NCBI GenBank assembly: GCA_022340665.1
Contig: JAJDNM010000034.1
Span: 1-51,493, forward strand
Source of the DNA: Acidobacteriota bacterium
GTDB taxonomy: Bacteria > Acidobacteriota > Thermoanaerobaculia > Thermoanaerobaculales > Sulfomarinibacteraceae
DNA length: 51,493 nt
Direction: 5' to 3'
The position numbers and the translations under genes were made by a program. Under the pieces are notes generated by a model. The model was not told the origin of the DNA and made no database searches. It saw nothing but the letters and a program-made list of their open reading frames with translations. Below, piece after piece: positions 7,481-48,603 of this stretch (positions within the stretch are counted from its first letter, which is position 1; each line of letters starts with the position of its first letter).

Positions 7481-8379
7481 TGCCTGGAATCAGAGAGTTT
7501 GCGAGCGTGGCTCGTGCCCCTTTTCTGCTACTGCCCCCGACGCTGGTTGCTTCGGGTGCTGCGGCGGCCGCTTGGGACGGAGCATTCTCCTGGACGCGAA
7601 CCTTCCTTGCCGCTGTAGGTCTGGTGGCTCTGCACATGGCGGTCAATATTTTCAACGAGTGGAGCGACATGCGCACCGGGATCGACCTCGAGACCGAGCG
7701 CACGCCGTTCTCCGGCGGCAGTGGGACTCTGCCGGCCAGCGGTATGAGCCTGCGGACAGCCCTGGTCTTCGGCCTGGTCTGCAGCAGCGTCGGGCTCGCC
7801 ATCGGGTTGTGGTTCGTGTCGAAAGTCGGGTGGGTGCTGGTGCCGCTGATGATTGCGGGGGCGGTGTCCGTGCTCGCTTACACCGATTTTTTGGCGCGGA
7901 TCGGGATCGGCGAACTGGCGGCCGGCTTCGGACTCGGTGCGGGACCGGTGATCGGCAGTGCACTCGTGCAGGGCGGAGGGTGGAGTCACGCTGCCGTTGC
8001 TGCGTCGATTCCAGCATTCTTCATGACGTTCAATCTGCTTCTCCTGAACGAATTCCCTGATGAGGAGGCCGACCGCAAAGGCGGGCGGCGAAACCTCGTG
8101 ATTCTCTTCGGGAGGAAGTCGGCGGCCCGGATCTACGCTCTCGCGGGGTGTGCAACGCCCGCTTCGGTCGCGAGTGCGGTGGTCGTCGGTATTCTTCCGC
8201 CGATGTGCTTGACCGCGGCTTTGCCGTCACTTCTATTGACCAAGCCGCTCAAGTGGGCCTTCACCGATCCGTCGCAGTCGGTGCCCATTCCTGCCCTCGG
8301 CGCGAATGTCGTATGGAATCTGGCGACGAACACGCTCTTGGCGTTGGCTCTGGTTGTGGCGATACTTTTTCGGAGTTAA
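7480..8379 (+). CDS. UbiA-superfamily prenyltransferase (MenA-like)
   Basis: This is a 299-residue membrane enzyme. Two aspartate-rich prenyl-diphosphate/Mg sites are visible: NIFNEWSDMRTGID (about residues 54-67, the NxxxD-type motif) and NEFPDEEADRKGGRRN (about 189-204). The segment FSGGSGTLPASGM matches the MenA-like branch that prenylates dihydroxynaphthoate, but other UbiA members with similar motifs act on other aromatics. It overlaps the upstream glycosyltransferase gene by one base, so co-translation is likely. Its TAA stop is formed by the first unit of a 7-bp tandem array: the array continues straight out of the gene. Family certain, substrate not. Confidence 0.88.
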   Translation: MPGIREFASVARAPFLLLPPTLVASGAAAAAWDGAFSWTRTFLAAVGLVALHMAVNIFNEWSDMRTGIDLETERTPFSGGSGTLPASGMSLRTALVFGLVCSSVGLAIGLWFVSKVGWVLVPLMIAGAVSVLAYTDFLARIGIGELAAGFGLGAGPVIGSALVQGGGWSHAAVAASIPAFFMTFNLLLLNEFPDEEADRKGGRRNLVILFGRKSAARIYALAGCATPASVASAVVVGILPPMCLTAALPSLLLTKPLKWAFTDPSQSVPIPALGANVVWNLATNTLLALALVVAILFRS

Positions 8380-8511
8380 GAGTTAAGAGTTAAGAGTTAA
8401 GAGTTGAGAGTTGAGAGTTGAGAGTGGAGAGTGGAGAGTACTTCCTGCCCGTCCCAATGGGACCGGGAGGGTGGGTGGGAACTCTCAACTCAAAACTCAC
8501 AACTCAAAACT
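8373..8511. repeat. Heptad-arm hairpin element, copy A
   Basis: The left arm (8373-8439) is nine exact 7-bp units (GAGTTAA x4, GAGTTGA x3, GAGTGGA x2) plus GAGT. The right arm (8480-8511) is four units of the opposite orientation (AACTCNN) plus AACT. Between them is a GC-rich core whose CCCGTCCC and GGGACCGGG pair around a short loop. The first unit contains the stop codon of the UbiA-type gene. The element fills the gap between two convergent genes. Confidence 0.9.
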
Positions 8512-8519
8512 GCCGAAGG

Positions 8520-9722
8520 CTACGCGCTCCTGACCCCGTACCGCACCACCCGATTCCTCCCCTTGCTCTTGGCCCGATACAGGGCTCTGTCGGCCGCTTG
8601 TAGAACTGCCTCTGTGCCGACCGCCCGGGCGGAAGGTCCGGCAAAACCGATGCTCACAGATACGTTGATCAGCTTCGGAGATCGACTCTGTTTGCGCGGA
8701 GGATCGGGTTTCTTTCGTGGGCGGTTGGGCCCCCGAAGGGCGAAACGCCGGTTGGCGATCGCTTCCCGTACGTTCTCGAGCGGATCCGCGGCGCCCGACG
8801 GTTTGGTGCCCGGGAAGACGATCGCGAACTCCTCACCGCCGTAGCGATAGGCCTTTCCGCCGCCACCGACCTTCTGCAACTCGGTCGCGACCATGCGCAA
8901 CGCCTGGTCTCCCGCGGCGTGGCCGTGGCGATCGTTGAATCGTTTGAAATGGTCGACATCGGCCATCGCAATCGTGTAGTCGCCGTTGAGAGTGCGGAGC
9001 GCTTCCTCCAGCGCTCGTCTTCCGGGAAGGCCGGTGAGCTCGTCGTGATAGGCGAGGCGATAGGAATCCTCGACCAGTCCGGTCAGCAGCACGAGCTGTG
9101 CGGCGGTGAAGCCGAGGGTCGCTGCGTGGGGTCCTCTCCAGGAGAGCAGGGCGATGGAAGCAGCCACGATCACCCACAGCAGCGAACCCTCGAAAGTGGT
9201 GCGGCGGGCCGCGAAAGCCAGGGCGATGAATGCGCCAGCTATCAGAAAAACGAGTCGTGAGAAATCGGGCGATGTGAGGAGCTCACCGATGCTTCGGACA
9301 AGGCTGTTACCCGCTTCCGAAGGCACCAAACCGGCGACCTGTCCGACGAGGACCGCCTGGAGAACGACAATCGCTGCCAGAAGGAGGATCGTTGGCCCGG
9401 TGATCGGTTGCTCTGGAAGCAGCGAGAGCAGCGCCAGAGTGATCGGCAAGAAGAACGACAGGGTGGCGAGGCCGACCTCCGAAGACGGGTCTGCCAACGG
9501 GCCGCGGGAGAGGAAGTTCGCGAGCGCGACGGCGAGTGCGGCGATCACCAGCCGACCACGCCGGAACCTCCACCCGAGAACCAGCAGGAGAACCGCGAGG
9601 AACTCGGCGAGCACGTTGGTTATCGGTCGTTGCGCCTCCGGCAGGCCGGAGATGCCAGCGATCCAGGCCGCCAGAACCGGCAGACCCCCAACGACCATCG
9701 TGATCTTGCCGGCGCCCCTCAT
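8520..9722 (-). CDS. Membrane-bound diguanylate cyclase (GGDEF)
   Basis: This 400-residue protein has a hydrophobic N-terminal half with about 7-8 membrane segments (to about residue 225) and a C-terminal GGDEF domain starting at AYHDELTGLPGRRALEEAL. The active-site motif GGEEF is intact (YRYGGEEFAIVF), as are DVDHFKRFND for metal and substrate. It should make cyclic di-GMP from two GTP. The usual RxxD inhibitory site five residues before the motif is absent, so product inhibition at that site is unlikely. Two consecutive ATGs exist (9725 and 9722); the second lies exactly 6 bases after a TACAAT -10, so I chose it. A 35-residue basic insertion follows GGEEF (PNRPRKKPDPPRKQSRS). Confidence 0.92.
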   Translation of the reverse strand: MRGAGKITMVVGGLPVLAAWIAGISGLPEAQRPITNVLAEFLAVLLLVLGWRFRRGRLVIAALAVALANFLSRGPLADPSSEVGLATLSFFLPITLALLSLLPEQPITGPTILLLAAIVVLQAVLVGQVAGLVPSEAGNSLVRSIGELLTSPDFSRLVFLIAGAFIALAFAARRTTFEGSLLWVIVAASIALLSWRGPHAATLGFTAAQLVLLTGLVEDSYRLAYHDELTGLPGRRALEEALRTLNGDYTIAMADVDHFKRFNDRHGHAAGDQALRMVATELQKVGGGGKAYRYGGEEFAIVFPGTKPSGAADPLENVREAIANRRFALRGPNRPRKKPDPPRKQSRSPKLINVSVSIGFAGPSARAVGTEAVLQAADRALYRAKSKGRNRVVRYGVRSA

Positions 9723-9728
9723 CATTCA

Positions 9729-26561: not shown

Positions 26562-27029
26562 ATGCCAGTTATCATCGACGGCAACAACCTGCTCCACACA
26601 CTTCCCGATCGCCAGAGGAATCGAAAAGAGGTTCGTCGACTCGCGCTCGAAACGGTTCGACACGAAACGATGCAGCTGGTCGTGGTCTTCGACGGACCCG
26701 CTCCGTCCGGATGTCCCGAGGTCGAGGTCCTCGGCTCGGTCACCGTCCGGTACTCGGGGTCGGCGAGTGCGGACGAGACCATCCTGCGTCTGCTGCCAAG
26801 CGGCAAAGCACAAGGCTGGGTCGTCGTGACCGATGACCGGGATCTCGGCAGGCGAGCGAGGGAGCTGGGTGCGAGCGTCCGGCCCGTGAGCCATTGGCGC
26901 GGGCGAAATCCACCTCGGCGACGGCGCGTGTCGACCGAGCCGAAGCTGTCCTCGCACGAGGTGGGTGAGTGGGAGGCATACTTTTCCGCCCCAGATGAAG
27001 AGTCCGTCACTGACCCGCATGATTCATGA
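26562..27029 (+). CDS. NYN-domain (YacP-like) putative ribonuclease
   Basis: This 155-residue protein starts MPVIIDGNNLLHTLPD, the conserved opening of NYN/PIN-like nucleases (D6, N8, N9). Other acidic residues at VVVFDGPAP (about 48), SADETILRLL (about 72) and VVTDDRDLGRRARELGA (about 88) fit the metal site. YacP-type proteins bind or cleave RNA such as rRNA or mRNA in Bacillus. The basic C-terminal stretch RGRNPPRRRRV may bind nucleic acid. It is the third gene of the run from 23762. A one-armed heptad array follows. Confidence 0.85.
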   Translation: MPVIIDGNNLLHTLPDRQRNRKEVRRLALETVRHETMQLVVVFDGPAPSGCPEVEVLGSVTVRYSGSASADETILRLLPSGKAQGWVVVTDDRDLGRRARELGASVRPVSHWRGRNPPRRRRVSTEPKLSSHEVGEWEAYFSAPDEESVTDPHDS

Positions 27030-27090: not shown

Positions 27091-27125
27091 AACTCAAAAC
27101 TCAAAAATCTCAACTCAAAATTCGA
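27091..27125. repeat. Heptad array, copy B (one arm only)
   Basis: Five in-phase 7-bp units: AACTCAA, AACTCAA, AAATCTC, AACTCAA, AATTCGA. The G-rich segment GGGTCGGAGGGTGG directly before it matches the right half of the cores in the two-armed copies. No left arm is recognisable, so this copy looks truncated. Confidence 0.8.
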
Positions 27126-27201: not shown

Positions 27202-28758
27202 ATGGCCAACCACATCAACCAAATCAAGAAATCGTTCTCCGACCTCGGGATCGAGATGAATTTCGGGATCGAGGCATCGAATATCGGCGCCTGCACCGGC
27301 GAGTGGGTCGTCGCCGAAGACATGCACGAACTGATCTCGGTCAATCCGACTGACGGCCAGCCAATCGCTTCAGTCATCCAGGCGGATGAGGCGGCATACG
27401 AAAGGGTCGTGGCGACTGCAGCCGAGACCTTCAAGTCCTGGCGGATGATGCCCGCTCCGGCTCGCGGTGAAATCGTCCGTGACCTCGGCAACGAGTTGCG
27501 GATCTTCAAGGATCCCCTCGGCAAGCTCGTGTCACTCGAGATGGGCAAGATCCTCTCCGAAGGCCTTGGCGAGGTTCAGGAGATGATCGACATGTGTGAT
27601 TTCGCGGTCGGTCTCTCGCGCCAGCTTTATGGCCCTACGATGATGTCGGAACGTGCACGCCACCGGATGTATGAGCAGTGGCACCCGCTCGGCGTCGTTG
27701 GTGTCGTCACCGCCTTCAACTTCCCGGTCGCAGTATGGGCGTGGAACGCCGCACTTGCTGCCGTGTGTGGCGACACCGTCATCTGGAAGCCGTCGTCGGA
27801 CACCCCGTTGACCGCGATAGCCGTGCAGCACATCTGCAACCGGGTCATGGACCGCCATGGAGTGCCCGGGGTCTTCAGCCTCGTTGTTGGCCCGGGACGC
27901 ACGGTGGGAGAGCGCATGATCAACGATTCACGGGTTCCGCTCATCTCGTTTACCGGGTCCACCAAGATGGGCCGCCACGTATCAGAAACCGCGGCCCGGC
28001 GGTTCGGCCGAAGCATTCTCGAGCTGGGCGGCAACAATGCGATCATCGTCGCTGAAGACGCCGACCTCGAGCTTGCTGTGCGTGCCATTCTCTTTGCCGC
28101 AGTCGGTACGGCCGGTCAACGCTGCACTAGCCTGCGCCGTCTCTTCCTTCAAAAGGGTATCGCCGGTGAGGTCATCGATCGCCTGCTCAAGGCCTACCCG
28201 AGCATCGCCATCGGCGACCCGCTCGACGAAAACGTCCTGATGGGACCGCTTGTCAACGAACGTGCAGTCGAGGATCACATGGCTGCGCTCGAGGCAATTC
28301 GTGAGCAGGGCGGCGAGATTCTGTATGGCGGCGGTCGACCGGACCGTGAGGGCTTCTTTGTCGAGCCGACGATAGTCAAGGCCCGGCCCGACATCGAGAT
28401 CGCGCAGGACGAAACCTTCGCACCGATTCTCTACGTCTTCGAGTATGACGACCTCGGCGAGGCCATTCACTATCACAATGCGGTGATGCAGGGCCTGTCG
28501 TCAGCGGTCTTCACCTCGAACCTCCATACCGCCGAGAAGTTCCTTTCGCACGAAGGCTCGGACTGCGGCATCGCCAATGTCAACATCGGCACCTCGGGCG
28601 CAGAGATCGGCGGCGCGTTCGGTGGAGAGAAGGAGACGGGCGGTGGTCGCGAGGCCGGATCGGATGCGTGGAAAGCGTACATGCGGCGCCAGACCTGCAC
28701 CATCAACTGGGGTGGTGAACTACCATTGGCCCAAGGCGTGAAGTTCGACGTGGAGTAG
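27202..28758 (+). CDS. Aldehyde dehydrogenase family 7 (alpha-aminoadipate semialdehyde dehydrogenase-like)
   Basis: This 518-residue NAD-dependent dehydrogenase has its catalytic Cys in GTAGQRCTSLRR (about residue 309) and the general base Glu in LELGGNNAI (about 275). The cofactor loop FTGSTKMGR is present. The C-terminal block SDCGIANVNIGTSGAEIGGA and GGEKETGGGREAGSDAWKAY is diagnostic for the ALDH7 family (antiquitin), which oxidises alpha-aminoadipate semialdehyde/P6C in lysine breakdown and also other aldehydes. Length is normal. It has its own promoter and stands alone, as the next gene is convergent. Confidence 0.95.
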   Translation: MANHINQIKKSFSDLGIEMNFGIEASNIGACTGEWVVAEDMHELISVNPTDGQPIASVIQADEAAYERVVATAAETFKSWRMMPAPARGEIVRDLGNELRIFKDPLGKLVSLEMGKILSEGLGEVQEMIDMCDFAVGLSRQLYGPTMMSERARHRMYEQWHPLGVVGVVTAFNFPVAVWAWNAALAAVCGDTVIWKPSSDTPLTAIAVQHICNRVMDRHGVPGVFSLVVGPGRTVGERMINDSRVPLISFTGSTKMGRHVSETAARRFGRSILELGGNNAIIVAEDADLELAVRAILFAAVGTAGQRCTSLRRLFLQKGIAGEVIDRLLKAYPSIAIGDPLDENVLMGPLVNERAVEDHMAALEAIREQGGEILYGGGRPDREGFFVEPTIVKARPDIEIAQDETFAPILYVFEYDDLGEAIHYHNAVMQGLSSAVFTSNLHTAEKFLSHEGSDCGIANVNIGTSGAEIGGAFGGEKETGGGREAGSDAWKAYMRRQTCTINWGGELPLAQGVKFDVE

Positions 28759-30006: not shown

Positions 30007-31353
30007 ATGGTCCACATGGAAGGCACGGTTCTGGTCATCGACGACGACCCGGGGGTCCGAAAAGCGCTCAAACGCATCCTGACCGGGGCCGGCTATCATT
30101 TCGAGGAGGCCAGCGATGCCTTCCAGGCGCTGGAAGCCATCGATGCCAGCCCGCCGGATGCGGCGTTGCTCGACATCAAGATGCCCGGGTTGGACGGGCT
30201 CGGCTTGATGGAGAACCTCAACCAGCGGGGCCTCGAGATTCCAATCGTGATTCTGACCGGCCATGGCGACGAGTTCACCTCGAGCCAGTGCCTCGAAGCG
30301 GGCGCCGCCGGCTACCTGACCAAGCCGCCCGATCGGGCGGAACTGCTGCTTGCCGTTCAGGGAGCGGTCGCTCAGGGTCGGGTGAGAAAGGAGCTCGGCC
30401 GGATCGCCGAGCCACCACCACTCCTCGGCGACAGCACGGAAATGCACCAGCTACGCGACGAGATCGCCCGCGTGGCCCCGTCGCATGCGACGGTGATGGT
30501 CGAAGGCGAGTCGGGGACCGGCAAGGAGCTTGTGGCGAGGCGCTTGCACCATCTCTCCGACCGAGCGCGGCGCCCGTTCGTACGGGTCAACTCGGCGGCA
30601 ATCCCGGAGGAGCTCATCGAATCCGAGCTCTTCGGCCACGAGAAAGGGTCCTTTACCGGCGCCCACCGGCGCCAGGTCGGCAAGTTCGTCCAGGCCGACG
30701 GCGGGACGATTTTCCTCGACGAAGTCGGCGATATGAGCCTCAAGACCCAGGCCAAGGTGCTGCGGGTGTTGCAGGACGGGGAGGTCGAGCCGGTCGGTGC
30801 GGGTCGGGCCTTTCAAGTCGACGTGCGGGTCATCGCCGCGACCAATAAGAACCTGGTCGAAGAGGTGCAGGCCGGAAACTTCCGAGAAGATCTCTTCTAC
30901 CGGCTCGCGGTGGTGGTTCTCAAGACTCCACCGCTCCGGAAACATCCCGGGGACATCCCGGCCCTGGTCGAGCATCTCACCGATCAGTTCTGCCGGGAGT
31001 ACAACCGCCGACCCAAGACATGGGCGGCACCCGCTCTCGACCAGCTCGCCCGCCACCAGTGGCCCGGCAACGTGCGCGAGCTGAAAAACGTCGTCGAACG
31101 CGCCGTCATCATGGAGCTCGAGGACACCATCTCGGTAGTCGACCTGCCGATACTTCCGCAAAGCGGTGCCGCGGATTCGCTGCTCGACATTGCATCCCTG
31201 CAGGAGTTCCAGCGGCAATCCGAGATTGCCTTCCTGCTGCACCACCTCGAGCGCAACGGGTGGAACGTGGCTGCGACAGCTCGGGTCATTGGCACGCCGC
31301 GCTCCAACCTGTACAAGAAAATGCGTGCCTACGGCATCGAGCGGGAGCAGTAG
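30007..31353 (+). CDS. NtrC-type sigma-54 response regulator (REC / AAA+ / Fis)
   Basis: This is a 448-residue regulator. The receiver domain (about 1-125) has DDD near residue 14 and the phospho-acceptor Asp in LLDIKMPG (about residue 58). The AAA+ domain (about 140-370) has Walker A GESGTGKE, the sigma-54 contact loop GSFTGA (a standard variant) and GGTIFLDEVGDMSL. A C-terminal Fis helix-turn-helix ends the protein (ATARVIGTPRSNLYKKM). No histidine kinase is next to it. The stop overlaps the GTG of pyrE by one base. It could act on the sigma-54 promoter at 39682, but no shared binding site was found. Confidence 0.95.
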   Translation: MVHMEGTVLVIDDDPGVRKALKRILTGAGYHFEEASDAFQALEAIDASPPDAALLDIKMPGLDGLGLMENLNQRGLEIPIVILTGHGDEFTSSQCLEAGAAGYLTKPPDRAELLLAVQGAVAQGRVRKELGRIAEPPPLLGDSTEMHQLRDEIARVAPSHATVMVEGESGTGKELVARRLHHLSDRARRPFVRVNSAAIPEELIESELFGHEKGSFTGAHRRQVGKFVQADGGTIFLDEVGDMSLKTQAKVLRVLQDGEVEPVGAGRAFQVDVRVIAATNKNLVEEVQAGNFREDLFYRLAVVVLKTPPLRKHPGDIPALVEHLTDQFCREYNRRPKTWAAPALDQLARHQWPGNVRELKNVVERAVIMELEDTISVVDLPILPQSGAADSLLDIASLQEFQRQSEIAFLLHHLERNGWNVAATARVIGTPRSNLYKKMRAYGIEREQ

Positions 31354-31937
31354 TGAGCGGCGGCATCACCTTGCAGGATCTGACAGCCTGCGGGGCCCAC
31401 CAGCGAGGCCATTTCCTGCTCTCTTCGGGTCTGCACTCGGCGGACTATCTCCAGTGTGCACTCTATCTTGCCCACCCTCGGCGCTCGGCTCACGCGGGTG
31501 GATTGCTCGCCGGTGCGATCGTGGAGGCCGGTTTCGATCCGGAGATCATTGTCGCCCCGGCGATGGGAGGGCTGATCATCGGCCACGAGACTGCCCGCGC
31601 CCTCGACCTGCCATTCATATTCACCGAGCGAGCCGAGGGGGAGATGTTGCTGAGGCGTGGTTTCGGGCTCGCCCCCGGTCAGCGAGTGGTGGTGGTCGAA
31701 GATGTCGTTACGACGGGTCGCTCGACGCGGGAGGTGATCTCGATCCTCGAAAATCTCGGCGCCGAGGTGACCGGTGTGGCCTCACAGGTCAACCGGTCGG
31801 GCGACCCGCAGCCCTTCGCACCACTCTCCAGCCGCGCACTTCTCGAGGTCGAGTTTCCGACCTGGAAACCTGAAGAGTGCCCGCTGTGCCGCGATGGCGA
31901 GCCGATTGCCAAGCCGGGCTCACGACCGATCACATAG
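31353..31937 (+). CDS. pyrE: Orotate phosphoribosyltransferase
   Basis: This 194-residue enzyme of pyrimidine synthesis converts orotate and PRPP to OMP. The PRPP-binding motif VVVVEDVVTTGRST (about residues 111-124) is intact. The flexible loop and the start region (GAHQRGHFLLSSGLHSADYL, including the substrate-contacting serines) are typical. A C-terminal CPLCRDGEPIAKPGSR segment occurs in one branch of the family. The GTG at 31353 overlaps the regulator stop (TAGTG). The frame is open further upstream inside the regulator gene, but homology begins here. A heptad element starts 1 base after its stop. Confidence 0.95.
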   Translation: MSGGITLQDLTACGAHQRGHFLLSSGLHSADYLQCALYLAHPRRSAHAGGLLAGAIVEAGFDPEIIVAPAMGGLIIGHETARALDLPFIFTERAEGEMLLRRGFGLAPGQRVVVVEDVVTTGRSTREVISILENLGAEVTGVASQVNRSGDPQPFAPLSSRALLEVEFPTWKPEECPLCRDGEPIAKPGSRPIT

Positions 31938-31938
31938 G

Positions 31939-32077
31939 TAGTTTTGAGTTCTCGGTTTTGAGTTTTGAGTTCTGTTCGCTCACTCACGTTTGACACAGGG
32001 GTGGGTGGGGGGATAACTCAAAACTCGTAACTCAAAACTCGTAACTCAAAACTCAAAACTCAAAACTCATAACTCCG
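31939..32077. repeat. Heptad-arm hairpin element, copy C
   Basis: Left arm 31939-31973: five 7-bp units (TAGTTTT, GAGTTCT, CGGTTTT, GAGTTTT, GAGTTCT). Right arm 32015-32077: nine units, all AACTCNN, alternating CAA/CGT endings at first. The core hairpin pairs CACTCAC (31981-31987) with GTGGGTG (32001-32007). It lies between convergent pyrE and folK, and the last four units run into folK and provide its stop codon. Confidence 0.93.
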
Positions 32078-32565
32078 AGTATGGCGTCCGGCTCATGGCG
32101 ACGAGCCTCCTCGGCCAGCTCTTCAACCGTGAGTCCGAGGAACGGGTGAACCCAGTCGGCCGCGATCTCCGCCGCCGGCTCGAGGGCGAAACGTCTTTGG
32201 TGAAAACGGGGGTGTGGGAGCTCGAGGACAGGACCGCGGCAGACCAGATCGTCGGCCATAAGGAGGTCGAGATCCAGGCAACGAGGCCCCCACCGTTCCT
32301 CCAGCGATCGATCCCGCCCGGCCGCTGTTTCGAGTTGACGGCATCGATCCAATAGGTGCCTCGGTTCTCGTGGCCACGCGACGATCGCTGCCGCGTTGAG
32401 GTAGTCCGGCTGCGAGGGTCCAATCGCACGGGTGCGCCAGAGGCGAGAGGTCGCGAGAACGTCTCCGTCGCGAGCCAGACGATCGAGACAGTCTCGAAAA
32501 ACCGCCCGCGATTGGCCCTGATTGCTACCGAGACCGAGAAGCACTTTCAACAAGGATTCCATCAT
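32053..32565 (-). CDS. folK: 2-amino-4-hydroxy-6-hydroxymethyldihydropteridine diphosphokinase
   Basis: This is a 170-residue HPPK of folate synthesis. It transfers pyrophosphate from ATP to the pterin. Motifs GLGSNQG (about residues 11-17), the RWGPRCLDLDLLM signature (about 90-102, with the two Mg-binding aspartates) and LPHPRFHQRRFAL (about 116-128) are intact. The last residues (GVMSFEF) are encoded by units of heptad copy C, and the TGA stop lies inside one unit, so the array has replaced or extended the natural end. Two adjacent ATGs (32565, 32562) could start it. No clear promoter is visible. Confidence 0.95.
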   Translation of the reverse strand: MMESLLKVLLGLGSNQGQSRAVFRDCLDRLARDGDVLATSRLWRTRAIGPSQPDYLNAAAIVAWPREPRHLLDRCRQLETAAGRDRSLEERWGPRCLDLDLLMADDLVCRGPVLELPHPRFHQRRFALEPAAEIAADWVHPFLGLTVEELAEEARRHEPDAILGVMSFEF

Positions 32566-34306: not shown

Positions 34307-36916
34307 GTGATCAGGAAGAAGACCGTTCCTGCGGGAAAGACACCGCCGAAGAGCATCACTGGGGTGTTCAGGAAACTGACGTCCGGCAAGAGCTGGATGT
34401 CCCTCGCGATCGTGCTGCTGTGGGCGGCGGTTGCCGGCTGCCTGGTGGGTGCCGTCGGAGGGTGGGCGATTGCCCAGTTTCTGCGCGTGCCGCAGGTCGA
34501 TCTGCTGGACACCTTCGAGCCTGCCGCGACGACCCAGATCTACGCCGCCGACGGCCAGCAGGTCGCGTCCTACGCTCTCGAACAGCGCTTCGTGCTTCGC
34601 CCGGAGGAAATCCCCGAGCACTTCAAGCTGGCGGTGGTGGCAATCGAGGACGCCGACTTCTTCTCGCACGGAGGAGTCGATCCGCAGGCGATCATGCGTG
34701 CCGCGTGGTACAGCTTGTTGGATCGTCGGATCGGTTCGAGAGGTGGCGCGTCGACCCTGACCCAGCAGTTGGCGCTCAACCTGTTTCTCAAGCGCGAACG
34801 CACGATCGGCCGCAAGGTCAAGGAAGCGCTCCTCGCGATGGACATCGAGAAACGCTACTCGAAAGATCAAATTTTGACCATGTACGCCAACCAGATCTTC
34901 CTCGGCCACGGCGCCTACGGGGTGGAGGCGGCGTCCAACCTATATTTCGAGAAACCGGCCGCGGAGCTCACGCTGGCGGAGGCCGCGCTTCTGGCCGGGA
35001 TGATTCCGAGCGCCAACAATCTGTTCGACCCGATCCGGCGGCCGGAGAACGCGCTCGAGCGGCGCAATAAGGTCCTCGCGCGGATGCTCGAGCTTGGATT
35101 CATCGATCGAGAGGCGTACGAGGAGGCGATTGCGCAGGACCTGGGAGTCGACCTGCACCGCGAGCAGGTGGAGACCGGCGCCTACTTTCTCGAGATGACC
35201 CGGCAGGAGATCGAGCGCCGATATGGAACCGACGCCCTCTACACCAGCGGCCTTCAGGTCCATCTGACGATGGATTCGAAGCTGCAAGCAGAGGCGGAGC
35301 GGGCCGTTCGCGAAGGGCTCGTCAATCTGGAGATGACCTACATTGGATACCGTCGTCCGCCGAACGTCCTCGTAGATAGCGAGCTCGAGGACGTGGGTGC
35401 GTACCAGCATCCGAGCTGGGAGAACCTGGAGCTGGTCCCCGGTGCGATGGTGCATGCCGTTGTTCAGGAGGTGTCGACGCGAAAGGCGAATCTGCGAATC
35501 GGTGACCGCGCCGCCGAGCTTGGTCTCGGGTCCGCGAAATGGACGCGCTCGAACTCTCTCAAGAGGATCCTGAAGACCGGGGATCTGGTCTTCGTCAAAC
35601 TGCCCGATCCCTTGCCCGAGGATCCCGAGGCTGTGCTCTCGGTCGGGTTGCTCCAGGAACCCGAGGTCGAGGGCGCCTTGATCGCTCTGGACAACCGGTC
35701 GGGCGCGATCCTGGCTCTTGTCGGCGGGTTCGACTTCGAACGCTCCGAGTTCAACCGTGCGGTCCAGTCAGAACTGCAATGTGGCTCGGCCTTCAAACCG
35801 TTCGTCTATCTGACAGCCTTCGAGCACGGATTCACGCCGGCCGACACCGTGTTCGACGCGCCGTTTCTGCTCCCCGACAGTAATGGAGAGCTCACATATT
35901 GCCCGAAAAACTACTACGAAAAATATTACGGCATTACGACCCTGCGGCGAGCCCTCGAGCTCAGCTACAACGCGTCCGCGGTCAAGCTGCAGCAACTGGC
36001 GGGCAGTCGGTCGGTGGTCGAAACCGCACGGAAGTTTGGAATCAGCACCGAACTCCATCCATACCCCTCGCTGGCGCTTGGGTCGCTCGGAGTCCGCTTG
36101 ATCGATCTGGTGCGCGCCTACTCGGGGATCGCCAATCTCGGCGAGGTGCCGGAGCCGTTCTACATCGCCGAGGTCTACGACCGTGACGGGCGCCTGCAGG
36201 AGCAGTTCTTCCCACATACCGAGCGCGTCATGTCAGAGGCGGTGACGTACCTGGGACTGTACATGCTGCGGGGCGTCATCCAGCACGGTACCGGCAATAG
36301 CGCTGCCCGGTTCGAAGCCAATCTCGCCGGCAAGACCGGCACGACCGATCTCTACTCTGATGCGTGGTTCGTGGGCTTTTCGCCGCGCGTCACGGTCGGG
36401 GTCTGGGTTGGCCGTGACCTCAAGGCGCCGATTGCCAAGAAGATGACCGGAGCCATGGCCGCACAGCCGATCTGGAATGACTTCATGACAAATTACCTGG
36501 ACACGCTCACCCCGGAAGAGCTGGCGGAGGATTTTCAGGTGCCGCCAGGAATCGTCTTCACGCCGGTGGACGCGGCCACCGGAGAGCGCGCGGTGCCGCC
36601 GTGCAGCCACCAGCAAGAGGTGATTCTCGAAGCGTTCCTCGATGGTACCGAACCGATCGACCCGTGCAACGAGGAGATGGGGGAGATCATCAATCTTCCG
36701 TGGCCGTTCCAGCTGTCGTATTACTCACCCAAGCCGGGAGAGCCGATGCCGACCATGGAGGCGATCGGTTTTGCAGACGATCGGCTTCGACCGACGCCGA
36801 CACCGGAGCAGCAGGCGGAGTTGGAACGCATCGCCACCGATGAAGGTCCCTACGCTGCCGAAAAGCGCCGACTCAAAATGGGAGTGAGGAGACCTGAAAC
36901 GGACGAAACAAATTAG
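34307..36916 (+). CDS. Class A penicillin-binding protein (PBP1A-type)
   Basis: This bifunctional peptidoglycan synthase has 869 residues. It has a cytoplasmic basic end, one membrane helix (about 35-55), a GT51 glycosyltransferase domain (about 85-260; EDADFFSHGGVDPQAIMRA and RGGASTLTQQLALNLFL are the catalytic motifs) and a transpeptidase domain (about 430-760). The transpeptidase triad is present: SAFK in CGSAFKPFVYL, SYN in ELSYNASAVKL, and KTGT in LAGKTGTTDLYSDAWF. An OB-like insertion lies between the two domains. The C-terminal extension has three widely spaced cysteines. The GTG start follows a -10 at 6 bases. Its TAG stop shares its last base with heptad copy D. Confidence 0.96.
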   Translation: MIRKKTVPAGKTPPKSITGVFRKLTSGKSWMSLAIVLLWAAVAGCLVGAVGGWAIAQFLRVPQVDLLDTFEPAATTQIYAADGQQVASYALEQRFVLRPEEIPEHFKLAVVAIEDADFFSHGGVDPQAIMRAAWYSLLDRRIGSRGGASTLTQQLALNLFLKRERTIGRKVKEALLAMDIEKRYSKDQILTMYANQIFLGHGAYGVEAASNLYFEKPAAELTLAEAALLAGMIPSANNLFDPIRRPENALERRNKVLARMLELGFIDREAYEEAIAQDLGVDLHREQVETGAYFLEMTRQEIERRYGTDALYTSGLQVHLTMDSKLQAEAERAVREGLVNLEMTYIGYRRPPNVLVDSELEDVGAYQHPSWENLELVPGAMVHAVVQEVSTRKANLRIGDRAAELGLGSAKWTRSNSLKRILKTGDLVFVKLPDPLPEDPEAVLSVGLLQEPEVEGALIALDNRSGAILALVGGFDFERSEFNRAVQSELQCGSAFKPFVYLTAFEHGFTPADTVFDAPFLLPDSNGELTYCPKNYYEKYYGITTLRRALELSYNASAVKLQQLAGSRSVVETARKFGISTELHPYPSLALGSLGVRLIDLVRAYSGIANLGEVPEPFYIAEVYDRDGRLQEQFFPHTERVMSEAVTYLGLYMLRGVIQHGTGNSAARFEANLAGKTGTTDLYSDAWFVGFSPRVTVGVWVGRDLKAPIAKKMTGAMAAQPIWNDFMTNYLDTLTPEELAEDFQVPPGIVFTPVDAATGERAVPPCSHQQEVILEAFLDGTEPIDPCNEEMGEIINLPWPFQLSYYSPKPGEPMPTMEAIGFADDRLRPTPTPEQQAELERIATDEGPYAAEKRRLKMGVRRPETDETN

Positions 36917-37018
36917 GAATTCGGAATGAGGAATGAGGAATTCCCACCCCACCTCCCGTCCTGCGTCGGTGGGCGGGAGCTCAAAATTGAGAATTCAGAA
37001 TTCAGAATTCAGTTTTCA
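36916..37018. repeat. Heptad-arm hairpin element, copy D
   Basis: Left arm 36916-36943: GGAATTC, GGAATGA, GGAATGA, GGAATTC. Right arm 36977-37018: six in-phase units centred on GAATTCA x3. The core hairpin pairs CTCCCGTCC (36952-36960) with GGGCGGGAG (36971-36979) with one G-T wobble. The first base is the last base of the PBP stop codon; the far end is 4 bases from the thioredoxin gene stop. Confidence 0.9.
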
Positions 37019-39568: not shown

Positions 39569-39674
39569 AATTCTCAATTCTTGATTCTCAATTCTCAATT
39601 CCCTTTCACCTCCAGTACTCAGGGACGGTGGGCGGTGGTAAATCCCAATTCCAGAATCCGAAATCCCAAATCGG
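39569..39674. repeat. Heptad-arm hairpin element, copy E
   Basis: Left arm 39569-39603: AATTCTC, AATTCTT, GATTCTC, AATTCTC, AATTCCC. Right arm 39640-39674: AAATCCC, AATTCCA, GAATCCG, AAATCCC, AAATCGG. The core can pair CACC-TCC with GGA-C-GGTG (one bulge). The two arms match less well than in other copies. A sigma-54 promoter begins 8 bases after the right arm. Confidence 0.85.
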
Positions 39675-42331: not shown

Positions 42332-42366
42332 AATTCATAACTCAAAATTGAGAATTCAAAATTCGC
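42332..42366. repeat. Heptad array, copy F (single block)
   Basis: Five in-phase 7-bp units: AATTCAT, AACTCAA, AATTGAG, AATTCAA, AATTCGC. No GC-rich core or second arm is recognisable, so this looks like a solo or decayed copy. Confidence 0.75.
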
Positions 42367-43977: not shown

Positions 43978-44814
43978 ATGTATCCAAGAGTTCTTCTCGT
44001 CGTCGGCATCGCGTTCCTGGTTCCGCTTGCCGCCTGTACCTCGTCGGAGGACATGGCACTTCTGCATCGGGAGATCACGGATGTCCAGCGGTCGGTTGAC
44101 AGTCTTCAAACCGAGGTTCTCGATCAGTCGGATCTGCAGAGCATGGAGCGATCGATGGAGGAGATGACGACAAAGAATCTCCGTTCCAACGCCGATCTCG
44201 CTCTCAAGGTCGAGGAGCTGCAGGAGCAGATCGAGGCCCTGCACGCCAGCCTCGAAATTACGACCAGGCGCTTGCAGGCCATATCGCAGGAGTTGGCCGC
44301 GGCGCGGGCTCAGGGCGGTACCGGCGTCGTGCTGCCTCCGGTGACGGTGGTCCCGGGTGGGGGTGGCGAGGGTTCGACTGCCGCCAATACCGAACAGTCC
44401 ACTCCGACAATGGCGGGCACCGCCGGCACGAGCCCGGACGCGCTCTACCGCTCGGCCTACGAGGACTATATGCGGGGCAATTACGATCTCGCAGCAGACG
44501 GCTTCCGCGAATACATGCGGCGCTGGCCCAACACCGAGCTCACCGACAATGCCCTTTATTGGGTTGGCGAGTGTCAGGATGCGCAGGAGAAGCCCCAGGA
44601 AGCCCTCGACACCTTCACCCAGGTCCTGGAAGATTATCCGACCTCCGACAAGGCGGCAGCGGCTCAGCTCAAAAAGGGCCTGATCTACCTCAAGATGGGT
44701 GACCAGGGGCAGGGTGTGGTCAACCTTCAGTACGTGGTCTACGAACATCCGGGTACTCGCGAAGCGGATCTCGCGCGCGAGCAGCTGCGCTCTCTCGGGC
44801 TCACCATCCGCTGA
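43978..44814 (+). CDS. cpoB: Tol-Pal system TPR lipoprotein CpoB (YbgF)
   Basis: This is a 278-residue protein. A lipobox LAAC is visible at about residue 20, so this version is a lipoprotein, whereas E. coli CpoB is soluble in the periplasm. A coiled-coil trimerisation segment (about 25-110, VQRSVDSLQTEV, VEELQEQIEALHASLEI) precedes a Gly/Thr linker and three TPR motifs (about 155-270, YMRGNYDLAADGFREYMRRW). It coordinates PBP1 activity with outer-membrane constriction in relatives. TAGGAG sits 8 bases before the ATG. It is the last gene of the operon and is followed by a large heptad element. Confidence 0.93.
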   Translation: MYPRVLLVVGIAFLVPLAACTSSEDMALLHREITDVQRSVDSLQTEVLDQSDLQSMERSMEEMTTKNLRSNADLALKVEELQEQIEALHASLEITTRRLQAISQELAAARAQGGTGVVLPPVTVVPGGGGEGSTAANTEQSTPTMAGTAGTSPDALYRSAYEDYMRGNYDLAADGFREYMRRWPNTELTDNALYWVGECQDAQEKPQEALDTFTQVLEDYPTSDKAAAAQLKKGLIYLKMGDQGQGVVNLQYVVYEHPGTREADLAREQLRSLGLTIR

Positions 44815-44827
44815 CGTGTCCACCATC

Positions 44828-45001
44828 GGATACTGGATACTGGATACTGGATGCTGGATTCTGGATACTGGATCCGCCTGTCCACCCCTGGACGCGTTGA
44901 TTTTGAGAAAACCGAACTGTTGCCATCCAATATCCAACATCCAACATCGAGTATCCAGCATCGAGCATCCAGCATCCAGCATCCAGCATCCAGAATCGCG
45001 C
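44828..45001. repeat. Heptad-arm hairpin element, copy G
   Basis: Left arm 44828-44876: seven units of GGATNCT type (GGATACT x4, GGATGCT, GGATTCT, GGATCCG). Right arm 44925-45001: eleven units of ATCCARC/ATCGAGC type, the reverse complement of the left arm. Between them is GTCCA-CCCC-TGGAC (44880-44893), a perfect small hairpin, plus about 30 bp of other sequence. This is the longest copy and has a heptamer unrelated in sequence to copies A and C. Confidence 0.93.
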
Positions 45002-46366: not shown

Positions 46367-48448
46367 ATGACCGTGTATGCGACCGAGAACATTCGCAATG
46401 TGGCAGTGGTGGGTCACTCCGACACCGGCAAGACCTCCCTGGTTTCGGCATTGCTCTTCGACAGTGGAGCCGTCAACCGGCTTTGCAAGGTGGATGACGG
46501 CAACACCACGACGGATTTCGATGAGGACGAGCACGACCGGAAGATCACGATCAGCACTGCTGTCGCCCACTTCGAGCACAATGGGAAGAAGGTCAACCTG
46601 ATCGATACGCCGGGGTACGGCATCTTCACCACCGACGCGATCCAGGGGCTGAGGGTGGCCGACGCCGCCCTGATGATGATCTCTGCGGTCGGTGGTGTCG
46701 AGGTCCAGACGGAGAAGATGTGGAAGGCAGCTGCCGGATTCGATCTGCCCGTGCTCTTCGCGATCAATCAGATGGATCGGGACAGGGCGTCCTTCTCGCG
46801 CACCCTCGACTCGCTGCAGAAAAAGTACGGCCGCGAAGTGACGCCGCTGCAGCTGCCGATCGGCGCGGAGTCGAGCTTCACCGGAGTCGTGGACCTGGTC
46901 AGCGGCAAGGCATTCAACTGGGAACACGATGAGAGCGGCAACGCTACCGAAGGAGACATCCCCGCCGATATGGCAGACGAGGTGGCGTCGGCGCGGGAAG
47001 CTCTGATGGAAATGGTTGCCGAGCAGGACGAGGATCTGATGGAGGCATACCTCGAGGCGGGCGAACTCGACGCCGAAACCTTCGCGGGCGGCCTCAAAAA
47101 GGCAATCACCGCGCGCGAGCTCTTCCCCGTCTTCGCGCTCGCTGCCGGCAAGAATATCGGCGTGCAGCCTTTGATGAACGGGCTCACCGATCTCGTGCCC
47201 TCTCCAGACTGGCGGCCTGTCAAGGCGACGGTCGACGGCGAAGACCAGGAACTTGCGGTCTCGAAGGACGCACCCTTCGCTGCGTACGTTTTCAAGACCA
47301 TCTCCGATCCGTTTGCCGGTCGCATCACGCTGTTGCGGGTATTCAGCGGCGGCGTGGCATCTGATGCGAACGTCAGTAACGCAATCAACGGCGCGACCGA
47401 GAAGCTCGGCGGTCTGTCGGCGCCGCAGGGCAAGGATCTCGAGCATGTTACCGAGCTCGCCCCGGGCGACATCGGCGCCGTGCCCAAGCTCAAGGAGACC
47501 CACACCGGCGATACCCTGTGCGAGATCAAGAAAGCTATCGTCATCGAGCCGGTGCCGATTCCGGAGCCTGCAATCAGCTTCGCTCTTGAAGCCGGATCCA
47601 AAAACGATGAGAACAAGCTCGGGCCTGCCCTGGCCAGGATCCGCGACGAAGACCCGACCATCACGGTTGGCCGAGACCCGCAAACCAAGGAGATGCTGAT
47701 CTCGGGCGCCGGCCAGCTTCACGTCGAAGTCATGGTCGGTCGGCTCAAGAAACGTTACAACGTCAACGTCGTACTCCATCAACCGAAGGTCCCCTATCGC
47801 GAGACCATCACCGGCTCGGCAGAGGTCACCACCCGCCACAAGAAGCAGACCGGCGGTGCCGGCCAGTTCGCCCAGTGCGCGATCAAGATGGAGCCCAACA
47901 AAGGACAGGGCTACGAGTTCGTCGACAAGATCTTCGGCGGTTCGATTTCCCAGGGTTATCGCCCGGCGGTGGACAAGGGCGTTCAGGAAGCGGCCGAACG
48001 CGGTGTCCTCGCGGGCTACCCGATGGTCGACTTCAAGGTCACCCTGCTCGACGGCAAGGAACATTCGGTCGACTCGTCCGAAATGGCCTTCAAGATCTGC
48101 GGCCGCAAGGCCTTCAAGGAGGCCGCCAACCAGTGCAAGCCGATCCTCCTCGAACCGATCATGCAGATCGCGGTCTACGCGCCCGAAGACAACCTCGGCG
48201 ATGTGATGGGCGATCTCAACTCGCGCCGCGGCAAGGTCCAGGGCATGGACTCCGGGGACGGTACGACAACCGTCAATGCGCAGGTGCCGCTGGCCGAAAT
48301 GCTGACCTATGCGCCGACTCTCCGTTCGATCACCCAGGGCCGCGGCGACTACCACATGGAGTTCGCCGAGTATGCCCAGGTGCCTAAGCAGCTGCAGGAC
48401 AAGATTGTGGCTGCGGCGGCCAAGGACGAGGAGGAGGACGAGGACTAG
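46367..48448 (+). CDS. EF-G-like translational GTPase (EF-G2 type)
   Basis: This 693-residue protein has the full five-domain EF-G layout. P-loop: GHSDTGKTSL (about residues 16-25). Switch 2 reads DTPGYG where canonical EF-G has DTPGH, so the catalytic histidine is replaced by tyrosine. The guanine-specificity motif NKxD reads NQMD (about 138-141). These changes match the EF-G II paralogue group (as in Thermus), not the housekeeping EF-G. It may act in recycling, stress or translocation under special conditions. GAGGAG precedes the ATG. It follows purC at 44 bp. Its TAG stop shares its last base with heptad copy H. Confidence 0.9.
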   Translation: MTVYATENIRNVAVVGHSDTGKTSLVSALLFDSGAVNRLCKVDDGNTTTDFDEDEHDRKITISTAVAHFEHNGKKVNLIDTPGYGIFTTDAIQGLRVADAALMMISAVGGVEVQTEKMWKAAAGFDLPVLFAINQMDRDRASFSRTLDSLQKKYGREVTPLQLPIGAESSFTGVVDLVSGKAFNWEHDESGNATEGDIPADMADEVASAREALMEMVAEQDEDLMEAYLEAGELDAETFAGGLKKAITARELFPVFALAAGKNIGVQPLMNGLTDLVPSPDWRPVKATVDGEDQELAVSKDAPFAAYVFKTISDPFAGRITLLRVFSGGVASDANVSNAINGATEKLGGLSAPQGKDLEHVTELAPGDIGAVPKLKETHTGDTLCEIKKAIVIEPVPIPEPAISFALEAGSKNDENKLGPALARIRDEDPTITVGRDPQTKEMLISGAGQLHVEVMVGRLKKRYNVNVVLHQPKVPYRETITGSAEVTTRHKKQTGGAGQFAQCAIKMEPNKGQGYEFVDKIFGGSISQGYRPAVDKGVQEAAERGVLAGYPMVDFKVTLLDGKEHSVDSSEMAFKICGRKAFKEAANQCKPILLEPIMQIAVYAPEDNLGDVMGDLNSRRGKVQGMDSGDGTTTVNAQVPLAEMLTYAPTLRSITQGRGDYHMEFAEYAQVPKQLQDKIVAAAAKDEEEDED

Positions 48449-48603
48449 AATCCGGAATCCGGAATCCGGAATGAGGAATGAGGAATTCCCACCCGTCCTC
48501 CCGTGAAACGGAGGGCGGTTTTCTTGTCAGCCCGCAGTAGAGATCTCATGGATAATGCGGGCCAGGTCAAAACGTTTGAACGTTGAACCTTTCAACGTTT
48601 TCG
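48448..48603. repeat. Heptad-arm hairpin element, copy H
   Basis: Left arm 48448-48489: GAATCCG x3, GAATGAG x2, GAATTCC. The core has CCCGTCC and ACGGAGGGCGG, which can pair with small bulges, and is followed by TTTTCTT, so it could act as a terminator. A weak right arm (48569-48603) has units like TTGAACG/TTGAACC; its match to the left arm is poor. It fills the gap between convergent genes. Confidence 0.8.

Follow-up and report, generated by a model that had tools for sequence, protein, structure and literature searches.

Tandem heptamers have been described in several bacteria, the closest known kind to the elements analyzed here being the stop-proximal inverted heptamers of Xanthomonas. 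The GGGAATC heptamers of Xanthomonas and the GGGGA(C/T)T heptamers of Nostoc/Anabaena (Rehm et al., 2015, PMC4692102) are approximately 90% intergenic, lie at a mean distance of 28 nt from the upstream stop codon and in some cases over it, are fewer between divergent genes, form 70-75 inverted pairs per Xanthomonas genome and occupy the same sites in relatives with variation in both sequence and length. One Beggiatoaceae genome contains many intergenic tandem TAACTGA repeats (MacGregor, 2015, PMC4679880), i.e., one fixed unit that is located mostly just upstream of start codons, with one indirect repeat only. Passages on Geobacter metallireducens (PMC2700814) describe tandem heptads at many loci, including one class of sites paired on opposite strands; unlike the present elements, these are interpreted as regulator sites or RNA elements, occur also inside genes and, in those passages, are reported without relation to stop codons.

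The elements described below resemble the heptamers of Xanthomonas and Nostoc in their 7-nt tandem units, their intergenic location nearer to the stop than to the start and their inverted pairs. They differ in that the known heptamers consist of one G-rich, G4-forming unit per genome as opposed to dozens of mostly AT-rich units here, and in the presence of matched arms around a GC hairpin, replacement of units in place and protein tails encoded by arrays. In common with the TAACTGA repeats, many intergenic tandem heptamers are present in one genome; in contrast with those repeats, they are associated with stops, are inverted and comprise many units. REP, BIME and REPIN sequences, which are palindromes found behind genes and rarely near starts, contain no heptads, and differ further from the present elements in that no link of the latter to RAYT was found at two Y1_Tnp loci inspected. 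The P6b motifs of the Nostoc tRNA-Leu intron are presumably a case of heptad pairing. Passages on this intron (PMC4476775) describe repeat motifs of different classes in the P6b stem-loop, which lies within one intron and not at gene ends. To heptamers described in Xanthomonas and Nostoc without an assigned function, the present elements add many unit types side by side, co-changing arms, lasting sites and coding effects. Together, these features separate the view that sequence matters from the view that architecture matters, and make a 3'-end role and 7-nt slippage testable by comparison. They also reveal a simple route by which non-coding repeats can furnish essential genes with stop codons and C-terminal residues.

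Period-7 arrays and element architecture

The window, i.e., the whole 51,493-nt stretch of DNA analyzed, corresponds to contig C34 in the 3.95-Mb draft genome of a marine-sediment bacterium related to Candidatus Sulfomarinibacter, and the EF-G that it encodes shares 82% identity with the Candidatus Sulfomarinibacter kjeldsenii protein. Candidatus Sulfomarinibacter is an Acidobacteriota genus from marine sediment in the class Thermoanaerobaculia, and heptad elements are not mentioned in the repeat-related passages on this genus (PMC8528874). The sample comprised 788 kb (approximately 20% of the genome), i.e., the window and approximately 737 kb of further stretches, the contigs being chosen with a bias to AACTCAA matches that affects array density but not distances. 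Genes in the draft genomes were called with a home-made program based on a Markov model trained on the own genome, with folK added by hand; stop distances are independent of start-codon choice but would carry noise from any miscalled gene.

Period-7 arrays numbered 160 in the 788 kb, 147 of them intergenic, while 0, 0, 6, 7, 1, 0, 0 and 7 arrays had periods of 4, 5, 6, 8, 9, 10, 11 and 12, respectively. At a lower threshold, 131 intergenic clusters were detected, 60 of which contained at least two arrays. Comparison of the window with Rfam at gathering score identified three tRNAs and no match for the heptad elements. Possible 8-nt units (CCTCCTAA) were noted in the array behind the orthologue of gene 27202-28758 in one congener (L089 of G004), suggesting that other periods may occur at some sites.

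Approximately half of the clusters were two-armed and inverted, typically around a C-rich/G-rich hairpin core of approximately 40 bp, with a layout of left heptads, CCCACCCACCCTCCCG, loop, GGGAGGGTGGGTGGG and inverted heptads. Cores were mostly 30-50 bp in length and contained 66% GC as opposed to 36% for arms; the order of C-rich then G-rich was seen in 45 of 62 cores. A test for G4-type units located G-runs in the core and not in the units, of which there were 38 types, led by AAAACTC, AATTAGG, AGCATCC, AAATCCG and AATGAGG, the first two being the commonest (47 and 22 arrays, respectively). Matching of arms was evident from their likeness in inverted orientation, which was 0.730 within elements compared with 0.637 between elements (0 of 5000 permutations) and with 0.530 for direct orientation within elements. 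The presence of unlike arms in several elements (e.g., AGTTTTG with ATTTCGG), together with detection of one arm in approximately half of the clusters, indicates that full pairing is not strictly required. Predicted RNA folds of whole elements gave z values relative to shuffles of -5.0 for A and -8.8 for C, and moderate values of -2.5 for D and -1.6 for H.

Members of one family with GATGCTG/CATCCAG units (G000:C90:83206, C90:108819, C96:20128 and C148:68096) had a longer shared core, CGCCCGCCCACCCCTTGACAATTCAGC...TATCGATTCGTTGAATC, a pattern that suggests dispersal of these copies from one ancestor. A -35-box-like TTGACA was noted inside this core.

Location of arrays relative to stop and start codons

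The original prediction held that copies A to H of the window begin at, share or supply stop codons, and the junctions claimed for them were recovered. Thus, the first unit of copy A (GAGTTAA, 8373-8379) contains the TAA of the UbiA-type gene, which belongs to the UbiA family PF01040 by Pfam; copy C starts 1-2 nt past the pyrE stop (1 nt had been claimed) and on its opposite side encodes the end and TGA of folK; copy D begins on the last base of a TAG, with a GGAATTC unit on the G of 36914-36916; copy H begins on the last base of the EF-G TAG (48446-48448); and copies E, F, G and B follow a stop by 6, 9, 13 and 61 nt. The gene before element D is of PBP1A type (Transgly/Transpeptidase), and its whole stop lies within AATTAGG if the array start at 36911 given by TRF is used. 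No right heptad arm was found for element H at the EF-G locus.

Table 1. Coordinates of heptad elements and adjoining features (positions in the window unless a locus is named)
Feature	Position	Strand	Basis
Element A left arm, GAGTTAA/GAGTTGA heptads including TAA 8377-8379 of UbiA-type gene	8373..8439	+	TRF, sequence, Pfam
Element A core, C-rich/G-rich hairpin with end GGGAGGGTGGGTGGG	8440..8479	.	sequence, core analysis, RNA fold
Element A right arm, inverted heptads, 8 nt from stop of GGDEF gene	8480..8511	-	TRF, gene calls
GGDEF gene, convergent to UbiA-type gene	8520-9725	-	
Small uncharacterised ORF before element B, MPVIIDGNNLLH...	26562-27029		outside gene caller's set
Element B, single right-type arm AACTCAA, 61 nt behind stop of ORF 26562-27029	27091..27120	-	TRF
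pyrE-type phosphoribosyltransferase gene, stop 31935-31937, adjoins element C	31353..31937	+	PF00156
Element C left arm, AGTTTTG heptads, start 31939/31940	31940..31971	+	TRF, sequence
Element C core hairpin, ..GGGGTGGGTGGGGGG	31972..32014	.	sequence, core analysis, RNA fold
Element C right arm, AACTCAA heptads; minus strand encodes VMSFEF and TGA 32053-32055	32015..32075	-	
folK (HPPK), array-coded 3' end	32053..32565	-	PF01288, E=2.2e-31
Element D left arm, TAG 36914-36916 of PBP1A-type gene in first unit AATTAGG	36911..36941	+	TRF, sequence, Pfam
Element D core hairpin	36942..36984	.	sequence, RNA fold
Element D right arm, AATTCAG, 10 nt from stop of convergent thioredoxin-like gene	36985..37012	-	TRF, gene calls
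Element E left arm, AATTCTC, 6 nt past stop of hexapeptide-transferase gene	39569..39601	+	TRF
Element E second array, AAATCCC	39640..39672	.	TRF
Element F array, AATTCAA, 9 nt past stop of cytidine deaminase gene	42332..42364	.	TRF, sequence, Pfam
Element G left arm, GGATACT, 13 nt past stop of gene 43978-44814	44828..44873	+	TRF
Element G right arm, CATCCAG	44925..44997	-	TRF
Element H left arm, GAATCCG/GAATGAG, starting on the last base of the EF-G TAG	48448..48486	+	TRF, sequence, Pfam
EF-G intrinsic terminator, CCGTCCTCC..GGAGGGCGG TTTTCTTG, right behind element H array	48493..48526	+	
Inverted heptad pairs in G038	L129:15242-15510, L130:3507-3920, L126:11034-11135		

The claimed association of arrays with gene 3' ends, as opposed to an even spread over intergenic space, was borne out by their location closer to stops than expected from random placement in the same gaps. 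Thus, 29 of 61 elements in tandem gaps lay at most 20 nt from the stop compared with 11.2 expected from uniform placement with the same slack. With 50, 80 or 100 nt reserved before the next start, the corresponding counts were 17, 13 and 11 versus 6.3, 4.7 and 3.6 expected (P ≤ 0.00025), the last count being 11 of 19 elements (P approximately 5e-5). Where tandem gaps offered 60 nt of slack or more, a stop codon lay at most 20 nt away for 24 elements and a start codon for 2. Arrays overlapped coding 3' ends in 28 of 141 cases and coding 5' ends in 0 of 113 (P=3.6e-8); at least one sense codon was encoded by fifteen arrays and at least three by four. In contrast with closeness to stops, the base-level precision that had been claimed was not found. 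Thus, array starts were spread over approximately -10 to +15 nt without a spike on the stop itself, and 76 of the 97 arrays in the interval of -25 to +40 nt around a stop codon began at -10 to +14 nt, so that the relation is one of a zone of approximately 25 nt.

The supply of stop codons by arrays was reflected in stop codon usage, TAG and TAA together accounting for 44% at array ends as opposed to 27% elsewhere (P=0.0017). Arrays were shorter the farther they lay from the stop (Spearman -0.40, P=4e-5), as if the space between stop and core were filled by them. Elements were most frequent at convergent junctions (41%), compared with 23% at divergent and 15% at tandem ones.

FolK tails and comparison between species

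The effect on protein C-termini that had been anticipated was evident for FolK, which ends in ...G-VMSFEF-stop, the last six residues and the stop being encoded by the array. Congeneric species that have the locus carry array-coded FolK tails according to their own unit (SFEF in G001, RNFEFSILNSQF in G003 and SFELRVES in G004), whereas array-free orthologues from other genera end in PFP, PFPVTPCSLQTP, PFPVVPSSLHV and others, the same ending not being found among orthologues without the array. The length of the tail in this genome is similar to that of one array-free orthologue (G014), which indicates that the array replaced the last FolK codons rather than simply prolonging the protein. Inspection by eye of pyrE/folK gap sizes in array-bearing and array-free genera revealed no clean step of +100 nt.

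The presence of arrays agreed between congeners at orthologous gene ends, i.e., arrays were found at 15 of 22 ends that carry one in this genome as opposed to 7 of 52 that do not (P=7e-6, odds ratio 14). When arrays of one site were compared, their units were related yet changed (0.705 compared with 0.594 when permuted, 0 of 2000), those at the EF-G site of four species being AATCCGG, AATTAGG, AATTCGG and AATTTCG. The cleanest case of a kept place with a replaced word is the site behind gene 43978-44814 (44828-44997 in the window, and L094, L096, L084 and L085), where the words GGATACT, TAGCCCA, GGCTTGG, AGCTGAC and GCTGATA, mostly unrelated with the last two alike, were found in five species, two of them outside the genus. 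Since sites are mostly common to congeners while units diverge gradually, the suggestion of insertion at gene ends is weakened, and growth or turnover in place, the other possibility originally offered, fits better.

Few or no arrays were found in most other genera sampled. The genome G038 belongs to a different family within the class; its arrays, built from yet other units, were located 0-25 nt past stops and formed inverted pairs with inserts of approximately 30-320 nt. The units in this genome were very diverse (GAAGTCT, AGTCGGC, AGTTTCG, CGTAGTC and others) and some arms were approximately 150 nt in length. Near confinement of arrays to the genus, as indicated by the AACTCAA pattern alone, was rejected when unit-free period scans found other units elsewhere in the class.

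Candidate explanations

The reading preferred here, at a rough probability of 0.45, is that of a recurrent 3'-flank element that is renewed by slippage and copying, with its site kept for a folded 3' end. The element consists of the stop, a heptad array, a C-rich/G-rich hairpin core of approximately 40 bp (in most two-armed copies) and an inverted array, and forms a long imperfect palindrome directly 3' of genes, often between convergent genes. Slippage of 7 nt together with hairpin-templated copying would renew and homogenise the arms, and renewed arms may wander across the stop codon, which would be tolerated when a fresh in-frame stop is provided by the unit. The site would be kept since a folded 3' end would be useful, either for transcript protection or as a transcription barrier, in the manner of REP sequences. 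This reading is favoured by the single period of 7, the excess near stops even with upstream space reserved, the overlap with coding 3' but not 5' ends, the frequency of elements at convergent junctions, the matched arms, the kept sites with changed units, the RNA folds of A and C and the inverted pairs of G038. Elements at divergent junctions, unlike or single arms and the moderate folds of D and H tell against it. We infer that the arrays probably belong to a hairpin element of gene 3' ends that slippage keeps renewing, and the hairpin may act in RNA.

Neutral slippage without function, in which 7-nt duplications occur everywhere and survive in 3' spacers while those elsewhere hit promoters, ribosome sites or coding sequence, is a possible though doubtful explanation. 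It accords with the free variation of units and with FolK tails that differ by species without visible constraint, and a preference for 7-nt slippage is a published proposal of Mrazek, as quoted in passages of PMC4679880 and PMC4692102. However, a 2.5- to 3-fold excess of elements near stops remains when 20-100 nt are reserved before the start, and inverted paired arms, the GC hairpin core and conserved sites need more than slippage. Insertion at gene ends of non-autonomous mobile palindromes (REP/REPIN- or MITE-like), perhaps by a Y1 transposase, appears improbable. No heptads were seen at the two inspected of five Y1_Tnp loci in the genome, sites are conserved while units drift, and no target duplication was evident between congeners, whose spacers are too diverged for such a comparison, although the presence of five Y1_Tnp genes, the recurrence of a limited unit set (AAAACTC and AATTAGG in particular) at many loci and the longer core common to several CATCCAG-family loci would be in keeping with mobility.

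The location behind genes and the GC-rich stem cores would suit plain intrinsic (Rho-independent) terminators to which repeats have been added, and a textbook terminator does follow the EF-G array in three species (also G002 and G003). However, a U-tract was present at 6 of 105 array ends (5.7%) compared with 4.4% for shuffles and 8.3% for array-free ends with room, and by this lack of U-tracts the explanation, now highly improbable, is largely refuted. The suggested recruitment of arrays to classical termination sites is not supported for the same reason, EF-G being the clear exception and, among window copies, the only one with a GC hairpin and U-tract. Hardly any credence is left for back-up stops, i.e., for units that give stops in all three frames against read-through. 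While stops were more frequent in the sense than in the antisense orientation (0.086 versus 0.034 per nt), all three frames were covered in 37 of 97 arrays, fewer than the 57 predicted from composition-matched shuffled units, and several unit families (GATGCTG, ATTTCGG) lack stops, so that this explanation also is largely refuted.

A stronger version of the preferred reading of a renewed 3'-flank element, which must be regarded as rather unlikely, is that of a self-renewing 3'-end palindrome in which place, period and inverted form would be selected and sequence would be free, with arms rewritten in concert and C-termini and stops rewritten with them. If true, this would be a 3'-end device defined by its architecture (7-nt step, paired arms and GC core) and not by a motif.

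Two further observations concern gene ends in general. By scan, U-tract terminators were rare in the genome, that of EF-G being the textbook case. A separate family of palindromic heptads, AACGTTT/AACGTTC, was noted near gene ends at 48571-48600 in the window and at G000:C148:36732 and C132:109159.
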